Shown here one piece after another: positions 1,928 through 14,568 of a DNA stretch of 30,192 bases. Under the pieces are notes generated by a model. The model ran no database searches and was not told the origin of the DNA. It worked only from the letters and a program-made list of their open reading frames with translations. This DNA is from a virus: the IMG/VR virus record IMGVR_UViG_3300015262_000026, positions 1-30,192 of that record. One strand, written 5' to 3'. How positions within the stretch are numbered: the first letter of the stretch is position 1; each line of letters begins with the position of its first letter. The translations under genes were made by a program, and so were the position numbers.

Positions 1928-3402
1928 ATGACCGCCACCCTCGACTGGGCCGAGTTCGCCGCCCGCGAGTTCGAGCCAGCCAGCAACCACCGCCGGTGGG
2001 CCACGCCCGGCGCGCTGGCCAGGCACATGGACCCACGCACCGTGCAAACTGCGGCACTCGATCTCCTCGACCAGAACCTCGTCGACGTCGCCGAAGGCCG
2101 CTGCCGGCGACTCATGTGGTCGATGCCCCCACAAGAGGGAAAAGCGAACGGACCAGCCGCCGCTTCCCACTATGGCTGCTGGTCCAAAACCCGGATCTAC
2201 GGATCGCGATCGTCTCCTACGAGATGGGCGTCGCCCGCCGCTGGGGCCGCGCAATCCGCAATGACATCATCGCCCACCCGGAGCTCGGACTCCGCGTCCG
2301 GGACGACACGGCTGCGGCTCACGAGTGGCAACTCGACGGCCACCTCGGCGGCGTGTACTCGGTCGGTATCGGCGGCGCGCTCACGAGTCGTCCGGTTGAT
2401 GTCCTGTTGATCGATGACCCGCTGAAAGGCCGCAAGGAGGCAGACAGCGAGGCGTACCGGCAAGCGGGCAAGGACTTCTACACGGACACGGCGCGGACCC
2501 GTCTCGGGCCAACCGCCATGCAGATCATCATTCAGACCCGTTGGCACGAGGACGACCTGACTGGCTGGCTGCTGGCAGGGCCGTCTGGTCACGAGTGGCG
2601 GTACATCAACATCCCGGCTCAGGCTGAGAGCGCTGACGACCCGCTGGGGCGTGAACCGGGCCAGTTCCTGGTCTCCGCGCGCGGCCGGTCGGCGGCCGAC
2701 TGGGAGGCAACGAAGCGCGATGTCGGCGCCCGCACGTGGGCGGCCCTCTACCAGGGGCGCCCGGCGCCGGCGGAGGGCAGCCTCTTCAAGCGGTCGCACT
2801 GGCGCTGGTACGCCGCTCCTCGGGCCGTCCGTCGCGACGACGGCACCTGGTGGGTGCACGGCGCGGACGAGATCATTCAGTCCTGGGACATGGCGTTCAA
2901 AGACACCAAAGCATCCGACTTCGTGGTCGGGCAGGTGTGGGCCCGCTACGGCGCCGACGTCTACCTCCTCGACCAGGTCCGCGACCGCCTCGACTTCCCG
3001 GCCACCGCGCAGGCGGTCAAGGCCCTGTCGGCGAAGTGGCCGCAGGCTCACGCCAAGCTGGTCGAGGACAAGGCCAACGGTCCGGCGATCATCGCCCAAC
3101 TGCGGTCAGCGGTACCGGGCATGATCCCGATCACCCCGCAGGACTCGAAGTACGCCCGCGCCTCCTCCGTGGCCCCGTTCGTCGAGTCCGGGAACGTGCA
3201 CCTGCCCGACCCGGCGCTCGCACCGTGGATCGACGACTACGTCCAGGAACACACCGCGTTCCCCAACGCCAGCCACGACGACCAGGTCGACACCACGAGT
3301 CAGGCCCTGCACCGCCTCCTTGCCGGGCAATCAGGGGCCGAGCAGGCGATGGCTTACCTGCGCGCCTACCAGAACGCCGCAACGCCCCGAGCTGCTGGAT
3401 AG
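1928..3402 (+). CDS. Terminase large subunit, read through a -1 frameshift at 2137-2143
   Basis: ATPase/nuclease that pumps DNA into proheads. ATG 1928 has GGGAGG at 1914-1919. The N-terminal 72 codons lie in one frame and residues 73-491 in the -1 frame; joining them at AAA 2141-2143 gives a normal 491-aa terminase. The join is inside Walker A: PPQEGK in the first frame and SERTSR in the second. Walker B is VDVLLIDDP (about 157-165), followed by a TRWHEDDLTGWLL motif. The C-terminal RNase H-like nuclease has QSWDMAFKD, an acidic VEDKANGP segment and NASHDDQVDT. Without the shift, translation stops at 2408-2410 after about 160 aa and the product lacks every catalytic motif. The upstream part of the second frame (from 1996) is arginine-rich and not a real N-terminus. 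Whether the shift is programmed or a one-base deletion cannot be settled from sequence alone. Confidence 0.9.
2137..2185 (+). promoter_or_regulatory. Candidate programmed -1 ribosomal frameshift signal in the large terminase
   Basis: The heptamer GGGAAAA (2137-2143) is phased G-GGA-AAA in the upstream reading frame, the X-XXY-YYZ geometry of -1 slippage; both tRNAs can re-pair as GGG-AAA. After a 6-nt spacer (2144-2149) comes a perfect 8-bp stem, GGACCAGC (2150-2157) with GCTGGTCC (2178-2185), closing a 20-nt loop. The codons CCA, CAA, GGA and AAA just before the slip are unusual in this GC-rich genome, where CAG, GGC and AAG dominate. The alternative is a 5-to-4 loss in an A run, by mutation or sequencing error, which would give the same frame change. 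Confidence 0.6.
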
Positions 3403-3423: not shown

Positions 3424-6111
3424 GTGGCCCGCTGGTTCCCCTCCCTACGCCGTACGACGACCACCGAGCCAGAGGTGACGAAGAGCGCGGGCGTCCCGGC
3501 CGCGGCCACCTTCACCCCCACCCAAGTCGCCGCGCTCCTGGGATCCGTCTCCGTCAACGGTCAAGTCACCGGCGTGATGAACCCGCTGCCCCGGACCGAC
3601 CCCATGGTCGCGTTCGGGCCCGGCGTCCCCCTCATCCCCGCCCCCCTCGACCCGGTCCGGCAGGACACCGGCCGGCCCGAGCCACGGCTGACCGAGTACC
3701 AGGTCTCCACGAACTTGCCCGGGATCACAGACCGGCTGGTGCCGTGGAAGGTGCTCCGTGACGCTGCAGGCGTCGGCGGGCTGGCCCGGCGCTGCATCGA
3801 GATCCGGAAAAACGAGGTCGCCACCCTCGACTGGACCATCACCATCGAGCAGGGCGCAGCAGAGAAGGCGCAGGCAGAGAACCCGGGTGCGTCCCGCGCC
3901 GAGATCGAGGCCGAACTCGGTCGCCGGCTCGGCCCGGAGATTGCCCGCTGCACCCGCTTCTGGGAGGAGCCGAACCCGCGTGAGGGCGAGAACTTCGCCG
4001 AGTGGATCTCCAAGCTCCTCGAGGAGCACCTCGTCCTCGACGCGTTGGCGATCTACCCGCGGCGGACGTACGGCGACGAACTCTACGCCCTGGAGGTCGT
4101 CGACGGGTCCACCATCAAGGTGCTCCGCGACAACACCGGCGGCCGCCCCCAGCCTCCACAGCCGGCCTACCAGCAGATGCTGTGGGGCTTCCCCCGTGGC
4201 GAGTTCGTCGCCGACACCGACGACCAGGGGCAGGTCCTCAACGGCTACCGCTCGGACCACCTGATCTACAAGCGGCGCAACGTCCGCACCTTCACCCAGT
4301 ACGGGTACAGCGCTGTTGAGCAGGCGCTGGAGGACATCGACGTCTGGCTGCGCCGCCGGAAGTGGATCCGCGACGAGTACACCGAGGGCACCGTGCCCAC
4401 CGGGATGCTCACTAACAACGGCGCCACCGGCTGGACCGCCCAGCAGATCCTCGACTACGAGCGGTCCCTCAACGACACCTTCTCCGGATCGACCGCCGAA
4501 CGGCACCGGCTGCGGATCCTGCCCCCCGGGTTCGAGCTGCATACCAATGACGACGTCGCAGAGAAGTACCGGCCGGACTACGACCTGTACCTCATCAAGC
4601 AGATCGCCTCGCACTTCGACGTCACCATCGCCGAGCTCGGCTTCACCGAGCCCGGCGGCCTCGGCTCGACGGGCTGGCACGAGGGCCAGGCCGACGTCCA
4701 GCACCGCAAGGCCACCCTCCCGACCCTGCGGTGGCTGCAGCAGCTGCTGACGACCATCAGCCGCAAGCACCTCGGCATGCCGCCGGAACTGGAGTTCCGT
4801 TTCCTCGGCTTGGAGGAGGAGGACGAGGCCGCCGCGGACGAGGTTGCCCGCCAGCGCGTCGTCTGGGGCCGGATGACCCTCAACGAGGACCGTGACCGGC
4901 TCGGCCTGCCCCGTTATCCGTTCCCCGAGGCGGACATGCCGATGGTCATGACGACCCGCGGCGTCATCTTCCTCGAGGGCGCGTCCAGCGACGCGTCTCC
5001 TGGCGTACCGCTCGTCCCCGGCGACCACACCGACGAGGACGGCACGGACGACACCACGTCCGAGGACGACGAGCCAGGACACGACGACGGGAAGGAAGGC
5101 GAGGACGGAGGCCGTGGGGACGCCGTCAAGACCGAACTCGCCGCGTTCCGCCGCTGGTCGAAGAAGAACCCAGCCCCACGCCGACCGTTCGAGTTCCAGA
5201 CCGTCACCAAAGCCGACGCACCCGACTTGGCCTTCGACGAGCGAATCGTGTTCGCCAGCCCGGGCGGTGACCCCGGCCCAAAAGGTGAGCCGGTCGCGTG
5301 GCCCGGCTGGGACCGCGACCAGACCACCGCCGCTGCGTGGGAGGCCCGGCTGAAGAGGGCGATGGGCCGAGCCGTGGACTGCGACGCCCTCGCGGAACGC
5401 TGGCTGGCCCAGGAACTCGTCAAGGCCGACGAACCCGACACCGCGACGGCCGAGACGCCCGAGCAGCAGCCCGAGGACAGCAACACAGGCGAGTGGGCGG
5501 CCGCGATCGCCGTCGCGTTCCTCCTCGCCGAGGGCGTCGCCCTCACCGCGCCTCTCGCCGTCGCGCTCGCCGGCATCTGGGCGGAAGGCTGGGCGATCGG
5601 CAACACCGCCGCCCACGCCATCCTCACCGGCAGCCGAGCACGCTACGGGTGGAAGATCGGCGACGAGACCGCGGCCAGACGCACCCTGACCGCGACCATG
5701 GCGGACGCCCTCAAAGCGTTCGTGGACCAGAACCGCACCACCATCCCGGTGATCGCCGACCGGCGTCTGCAGGTCTTCGCCCGCGTGCTGGCCGACGCCA
5801 AGGCTCGCGGCCTGACCGTGAAACAGCTCGCGGACGCACTGAGGGACGCGCTGCAGGACGACGCATGGGCGCGGATGGTGGCCCTCACCGAGCTCACCCG
5901 TGCCAGCGCCGAGGCCGCCCGGGCCGCCTACACCGCCGCGGGAATCACGACCTGGCGGTGGATGACCGAACCGGACGCCTGCCCGGTCTGCGTGGCCAAC
6001 GAGGCGGCCGGACCGCGGTTCATCGGCGAAGCGTGGCCGGACGGCTCGGCCGCCCCGCCGGCCCATCCGCACTGCAGGTGCAGCGTCCTCCCGCTGGACA
6101 GCCCGTCGTAA
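3424..6111 (+). CDS. Portal protein fused to a MuF-like minor head domain
   Basis: 895 aa. GTG 3424 follows GGAAGGGG at 3410-3417. Residues ~90-540 form a portal (HK97/SPP1-type): an N-terminal VPWKVLRDAAGVGGLARRCIEIRKNEVATLDW segment split by a linker, a central region with YPRRTYGDELYALE, and a helix-rich stem with IKQIASHFDVTIAELGF. A very acidic Asp/Glu linker follows (about 540-565). From ~690 to the end is an SPP1 gp7/Mu gpF head-morphogenesis domain: long helices, WRWMTEPDACPVCVAN and the terminal HPHCRCSVLPL, with Cys/His residues that could bind zinc. The portal is the dodecameric DNA entry ring and MuF proteins sit inside the head. In many phages these are two adjacent genes; here there is no internal stop or ribosome binding site, so it is a genuine fusion unless processed. 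Confidence 0.9.
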   Translation: MARWFPSLRRTTTTEPEVTKSAGVPAAATFTPTQVAALLGSVSVNGQVTGVMNPLPRTDPMVAFGPGVPLIPAPLDPVRQDTGRPEPRLTEYQVSTNLPGITDRLVPWKVLRDAAGVGGLARRCIEIRKNEVATLDWTITIEQGAAEKAQAENPGASRAEIEAELGRRLGPEIARCTRFWEEPNPREGENFAEWISKLLEEHLVLDALAIYPRRTYGDELYALEVVDGSTIKVLRDNTGGRPQPPQPAYQQMLWGFPRGEFVADTDDQGQVLNGYRSDHLIYKRRNVRTFTQYGYSAVEQALEDIDVWLRRRKWIRDEYTEGTVPTGMLTNNGATGWTAQQILDYERSLNDTFSGSTAERHRLRILPPGFELHTNDDVAEKYRPDYDLYLIKQIASHFDVTIAELGFTEPGGLGSTGWHEGQADVQHRKATLPTLRWLQQLLTTISRKHLGMPPELEFRFLGLEEEDEAAADEVARQRVVWGRMTLNEDRDRLGLPRYPFPEADMPMVMTTRGVIFLEGASSDASPGVPLVPGDHTDEDGTDDTTSEDDEPGHDDGKEGEDGGRGDAVKTELAAFRRWSKKNPAPRRPFEFQTVTKADAPDLAFDERIVFASPGGDPGPKGEPVAWPGWDRDQTTAAAWEARLKRAMGRAVDCDALAERWLAQELVKADEPDTATAETPEQQPEDSNTGEWAAAIAVAFLLAEGVALTAPLAVALAGIWAEGWAIGNTAAHAILTGSRARYGWKIGDETAARRTLTATMADALKAFVDQNRTTIPVIADRRLQVFARVLADAKARGLTVKQLADALRDALQDDAWARMVALTELTRASAEAARAAYTAAGITTWRWMTEPDACPVCVANEAAGPRFIGEAWPDGSAAPPAHPHCRCSVLPLDSPS

Positions 6112-14327: not shown

Positions 14328-14563
14328 CCCGGTTGGAAGGACGCCCCATCCCCGGCAGCGACACCATCCCGATGACGCTGCTGGAACAGGTCGCCGACTA
14401 CGCCTGGTTCGCGGAGCGGTGGGGCTGGCCCCCGTCCGTGGTGGACGAGCAGCCCGCATGGATCGTCGAGCGGCTGCCGACCCTTGCGATCGCATTCGAC
14501 GAGGCGAAGGCGACCGCGCAGGAGCAGGCCAACGCGCAGGCCGCCCAGCAGCAAGGGGGGTAA
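14273..14563 (+). CDS. Tail assembly chaperone GT extension (-1 frame)
   Basis: This frame has no start codon with a ribosome binding site, but its codons after ~14300 are clearly coding: PYRAFRRIVARLEGRPIP, then TLLEQVADYAWFAERWGWPP and IVERLPTLAIAFDEA, ending Gln/Ala-rich at TAA 14561-14563. It is expected as a C-terminal fusion to the 120-aa chaperone. No perfect X-XXY-YYZ heptamer is present in the overlap. The best slip candidates are the C5 run 14272-14276 (Pro CCC can re-pair one base back) and the C4 run 14299-14302 (CCT to CCC). The coordinates here cover the zone where the shift must occur plus the extension. Reinitiation is less likely because no start site is visible. Confidence 0.7.
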   Translation, partial: PRAGGRRSVPYRAFRRIVARLEGRPIPGSDTIPMTLLEQVADYAWFAERWGWPPSVVDEQPAWIVERLPTLAIAFDEAKATAQEQANAQAAQQQGG

Positions 14564-14568
14564 CCCCG

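Follow-up and report, generated by a model that had tools for sequence, protein, structure and literature searches.

A recurrent −1 frame change at a slippery sequence in the Walker A codons of phage terL genes, probably decoded by ribosomal frameshifting

Recoding in phage structural operons and terminase genes

The lambda-type gpG/gpGT tail chaperone is produced by a −1 frameshift for which G_GGA_AAG serves as the slippery sequence. This heptamer is listed as highly shift-prone in E. coli in the available portion of PMC5009743. The locus described here is the large terminase gene (terL) of a single virus record of 30,192 bases, the whole of which is referred to below as the window. Both systems would slip by −1 at a G_GGA_AAR sequence within a phage structural operon, but here the gene encodes the packaging ATPase, the site lies early, in the P-loop, and activity is possible for the shifted product alone. 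Moreover, lambda-type gpG/gpGT frameshifting is conserved across tailed phages, whereas the terL state is sporadic among relatives.

Recoding of terL itself has been put forward in other phages. For the Microbacterium phage vB_MoxS-R1 (MW073100), an induced phage, a terL frameshift was proposed from alignment (PMC9030533, section 3.7). In this record (L367:3557-5168), the zero frame stops at a TAG following RPRGWG, so that the break, RPRGWG-stop / SKSPF, falls in the P-loop; its CDS coordinates imply a +1 offset, whereas PMC9030533 states −1, and the homologues listed from the phage collection give an unsplit match. The split in the P-loop region is thus shared with the present locus, but vB_MoxS-R1 is a single case from another TerL subfamily and no XXXYYYZ heptamer was given for it. 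The terminase of Streptomyces phage Hau3 is described, in the accessible part of PMC5009743, as a likely instance of bypassing, with KGWG preceding the key UUA. Its record (NC_018836; L368:2329-3995) carries terL as a misc_feature with no CDS, and the frame breaks between KGWG and GKDPLLA, again in the P-loop. Hau3 and the present locus therefore have terL recoding at the P-loop in common, although several nucleotides are bypassed at a UUA codon in the former, as far as that part of the source goes, in place of a −1 slip on a heptamer. The terL of Nyceirae is split elsewhere, between the ATPase and the nuclease. No terL recoding beyond these three was found in the literature searched, as far as the accessible text of those sources extends. 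The earlier note had considered frameshift control of the dosage of a packaging motor ATPase to be novel, a view that survives only in part, given the proposals for vB_MoxS-R1 and Hau3. A further class, corrective frameshifting of problem indels, is described in the same portion of PMC5009743; it resembles the present case in that slippage restores a required gene carrying an indel, but here a single codon triple is hit recurrently and a downstream stem is added.

The frame change and its signal in the window

In the window, terL and the features within it lie on the + strand, downstream of an unnamed gene (1037-1909, phrog_3678) and directly 5′ of an intact gene on the same strand for an 895-aa portal protein fused to a Mu-F-like head protein (3424-6111). 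The split gene is hence terL and not a tail-assembly chaperone gene of the G/GT kind. The zero frame runs from about the ATG at 1928 (within an open reading frame listed as 1922-2410) via MPPQEGK to a stop at 2408-2410, and the −1 frame reads SERTSRRFP... up to a stop at 3400-3402. The N-terminal half (1928-2143), ending in ...MPPQEGK in the zero frame, aligns in frame +2 with the unbroken TerL of relatives at up to 87% identity, and the C-terminal part in the −1 frame (2143-3402; 419 aa from the Ser of GKS to the stop) supplies the rest of the ATPase and the nuclease, matching the phrog_38 terminase large subunit (E 4e-92) and Terminase_6C. The tail that the zero frame encodes if no shift takes place (2144-2410; 88 aa after GK) has no family match. 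Joined, the two parts yield a protein with both ATPase and RNase-H-like nuclease domains, scoring 62 bits against Terminase_6C and 29.6 bits against Terminase_6N, for which the cut-off is 22; the −1 frame part alone reaches 21.0 and passes that cut-off only as the joined protein, in which the PPQEGKSE Walker A noted earlier is indeed intact. Comparison by sequence of the C-terminal part with solved structures gave no match.

The position of the switch was located by comparing the TerL of relatives with the window, the upstream half aligning in frame +2 and the downstream half in frame +1, with the change at 2128-2149. This two-frame alignment was seen with the TerL of G004, G003, G005, L002, L003, L007, and L009, so that one homologous protein is encoded by both frames across the junction; the remaining two-frame rows are read as the boundary between the terL and portal genes and as an antisense open reading frame of L009. 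The switch is also visible in codon-position GC.

The frame changes by −1 within the Walker A codons, at the heptamer G_GGA_AAA (2137-2143), which is in phase with the upstream frame from the ATG at 1928. A 6-nt spacer (2144-2149) separates it from a stem with its 5′ arm, GGACCAGC, at 2150-2157 and its 3′ arm, GCTGGTCC, at 2178-2185, all eight pairs being Watson-Crick; an inner 4-bp stem (5′ arm 2159-2162, partner 2173-2176) is added in the minimum-energy structure. An in-phase heptamer followed by a structure about 5-9 nt away (here 6 nt), as expected of −1 frameshifting, is accordingly present, and the frame change, the heptamer, the spacer, and the perfect 8-bp stem that the earlier note had described at 2137-2185 were all confirmed. 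GGGAAAA occurs once in the window against 1.17 occurrences expected by chance. The stem region folds at −21.5 kcal/mol (z −3.48), with none of 200 shuffles equally good. As a stand-alone chance argument the stem is weaker than this figure suggests, because 29% of the 57-nt stretches in the GC-rich window fold at least equally well and an 8-bp stem lies 4-9 nt downstream of 0.7% of its positions (210/30,112).

Recurrence among related loci and the link to slippery codons

A first set of relatives comprised 160 loci (80 viral and 80 cellular contigs), of which 155 covered Walker A, all of them continuous. These 155 unbroken relatives, together with the heptamer and stem that the close relative L009 has in a continuous frame, were the basis of a first reading as an ordinary deletion or assembly error, which was dropped once L188 and more breaks were found. 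L188 was the one stretch that came out one base short among the 26 returned by an optional-base pattern, the other 25 being full length. A scan for the shifted motif then gave 59 stretches, nine of which are terL with the break. In a scan for motifs one base short, with the E, K, and S codons left free and MPPQ and GGA fixed, 13 contigs were recovered, namely nine broken terL genes, two terL genes with an intein at the site, and two unrelated sequences; GAG GGA AAA GY was present in all nine of the broken genes. Frame-blind searches with C-terminal queries only added further relatives, including a new broken pair (L293/L297). No match to the shifted motif was obtained in actinomycete genomes (394 and 396 in two overlapping sets), and the eight isolated phages checked for the break are all unbroken. 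Two of the loci, L214 and L217, have contig names in a form that we take to be used for isolate genomes.

The 238 distinct loci that could be assigned by frame comprise 228 continuous, ten −1, and no +1 alleles, after exclusion of the ten of 299 loci that had no clear motif (seven of those ten carry inteins); as some of the loci came from pattern scans containing the heptamer, the broken count is not a frequency. All ten of the other −1 loci, from about eight lineages, break at the same codon on an identical in-phase heptamer, which in eight loci is followed 6 nt downstream by the full 8-bp stem; with the window, about nine lineages are affected. Near-identical broken alleles with the break in common were found on separate contigs in three pairs, L286/L287, L279/L276, and L293/L297. 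In every broken locus surveyed, the upstream part is intact to GK and the C-terminal part measures 418-472 aa (L245 is cut by the contig end, and L293/L297 lay outside this survey). The zero-frame tails of the other broken loci range from 12 to 249 aa and are unlike one another. The split is therefore real at the sequence level and has recurred, always together with a slippery signal of a kind known to work. The programmed −1 frameshift claimed earlier draws support from these ten other loci as far as slippage is concerned; its extension to dosage control is a matter of inference. An unbroken gene in related phages had been named as evidence against the frameshift, and conservation of heptamer and stem as a check on it: the gene is unbroken in 228 of 238, but these mostly lack the signal, and the heptamer and stem recur in the other broken loci, with the split scattered among relatives.

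The breaks are confined to slippery codons. All 11 broken alleles, the window among them, have codons capable of forming the heptamer, as do 8 of the 122 continuous E-G-K alleles (Fisher p 2e-11); the full stem is present in nine of the 11 and in eight of the 122 (p 4e-8). A GGGG run exists in 25 continuous alleles, only five of which have slippery-capable codons. That all nine lineages should sit on slippery-capable alleles has a chance of about 2e-11 if any allele could break, and of 5e-7 given a GGGG run, both figures ignoring shared descent and pattern-based sampling. Elsewhere in the viral DNA covered the tract is unremarkable, since a frame change was seen at 8 of 22 testable GGGAAAA tracts, every one of the eight being the terL site. 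For GGGGAAAA, an apparent frame change was seen in one of six cases, at L040, where homology shows the frame to be continuous. Nine broken contigs were screened without finding a second frame change backed by more than one query, the single-query signals in L217 and L239 being traceable to one opposite-strand open reading frame of L278. Among the 226 loci in which a stop was found, a single one (L115) has an early stop in the C-terminal part of terL; this gene is broken at about query residue 357 on a contig with a title coverage of 1.95, and is likely an assembly error.

On the tree, the broken state requires at least nine changes for 11 rows, with a shuffled mean of 10.7, and well-supported branches force eight and six changes in two analyses, values matched or undercut by 22 and 13 of 500 shuffles, respectively. 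The window and L188 are each nearest to an unbroken relative (L190, 92%, and L178, 94%, respectively); with these relatives and the scatter, there is no sign of a broken lineage that has persisted for long. Judged from the tree, the broken state probably arises repeatedly and is unlikely to be an ancestral, conserved trait. In both halves of the gene, the members of broken pairs differ mainly at third codon positions, a bias that is weaker for the two most distant pairs and that does not in itself amount to selection on the broken form because the break may postdate the divergence.

The stem varies among the broken loci, being incomplete in L265 (6/8 pairs) and L297 (7/8) and formed with a different partner in L214. 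Fold z-scores extend from −6.6 (L188) to +0.7 (L209), and the stems of L239 and L245 are not better than shuffles. The aligned-stem pair count is likewise no better than shuffles (152/500 for cells paired); double changes are seen in two of the eight pairs, which is better than slid controls but not than shuffles. Tests on independent pairs all pointed in one direction without reaching significance (median p 0.25 for the stem, 0.0625 for the heptamer). L009 and L325 have a continuous terL, yet both retain GGGAAAA and the full 8-bp stem, and are possibly intermediates or reversions.

Decoding, deletion, and the origin of the broken alleles

These data are best explained by recurrent −1 slippage, which probably makes full-length TerL. 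Ribosomes would read terL in the zero frame from about 1928 to GGA AAA, where a fraction may slip back by one base at G_GGA_AAA, putatively aided by the stem-loop 6 nt downstream, and would continue in the −1 frame to give a full-length TerL (about 491 aa) in which the PPQEGKSE Walker A is intact. In the absence of a slip, the product would be roughly 160 aa long and lack the motor. That slippage happens and suffices at this site is putative, as is the stimulation by the stem; control of TerL dosage by such a shift, limiting the amount of motor made, is plausible and equally putative. Within this TerL family, the state would have arisen several times from alleles one base away, at E-G-K-S codons of the form GAG-GGN-AAA-AGY. 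Transcriptional slippage is unlikely at a run of only four A.

Three other accounts of the same breaks were weighed. Real one-base deletions at a mutation-prone G/A run might simply inactivate terL and leave recent dead or helper-dependent alleles, in keeping with the placement of broken alleles at the tips beside unbroken relatives, with the retention of tract and stem in the unbroken sisters L009 and L325, and with the fact that a deletion in GAG GGN AAA AGY creates the heptamer automatically. We consider this unlikely, as the broken alleles, with 11 rows from about nine lineages, are no rarer than the eight eligible parents, GGGG runs without AAA-AGY are never broken at the site, no additional frame change with more than one query is present in the broken contigs, and the stem is enriched among broken alleles. 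Sequencing or assembly error at a homopolymer appears very improbable. The window is a single virus record for which no coverage is given, and the low-coverage L115 (2x in its title) has a break elsewhere in terL, but some nine lineages share the present break, as do near-identical pairs on separate contigs, breaks are limited to one codon triple and are all −1 with none +1, and other GGGAAAA tracts are unbroken.

The remaining account accepts the slippage and denies it a regulatory use: the shift would merely rescue a deletion, perhaps one left behind by inteins or homing nucleases that target GK^S, or one that evades them. In seven related loci (L253, L254, L298, L063, L064, L281, and L142), an intein sits exactly at the GK^S/T junction of the TerL Walker A and the sequence ahead of S/T ends in HN; L253 has Intein_splicing and LAGLIDADG domains. 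The unconserved zero-frame tails of 12-249 aa and the repeated gain or loss of the broken state would also fit such a rescue. No direct link between intein presence and broken alleles emerged, however, and the stem enrichment suggests stimulation beyond bare rescue, so that this account is held to be quite improbable.

With the breaks of vB_MoxS-R1, Hau3, and the present terL genes added to the intein loci, inteins and three proposed kinds of recoding are seen to use the same G-K-S/T junction. It may be speculated, at rather long odds, that the TerL P-loop is a recoding hotspot at which separate TerL subfamilies have evolved different solutions (−1 slippage in the about nine lineages of the present family, the +1 type of vB_MoxS-R1, bypassing in Hau3, and inteins), perhaps driven by homing nucleases or inteins that target this conserved DNA, with recoded alleles as escape variants sustained by a decoding rescue that would also set motor dosage. 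Should recurrent −1 slippage be borne out, the ATPase of the phage packaging motor would come under decoding control right where its catalytic loop is encoded, and −1 signals would prove able to appear time and again through single-base changes at places where coding constraints abut a G run and an A run. A terL gene annotated as broken in a viral genome may then still be functional.

Apart from terL, a run of six G beside a stop (14549-14566), upstream of the window's tape-measure gene, is flagged by codon-position composition (GC3) as a −1 shift in coding frame; it might mark the boundary between genes or be a second slip site.
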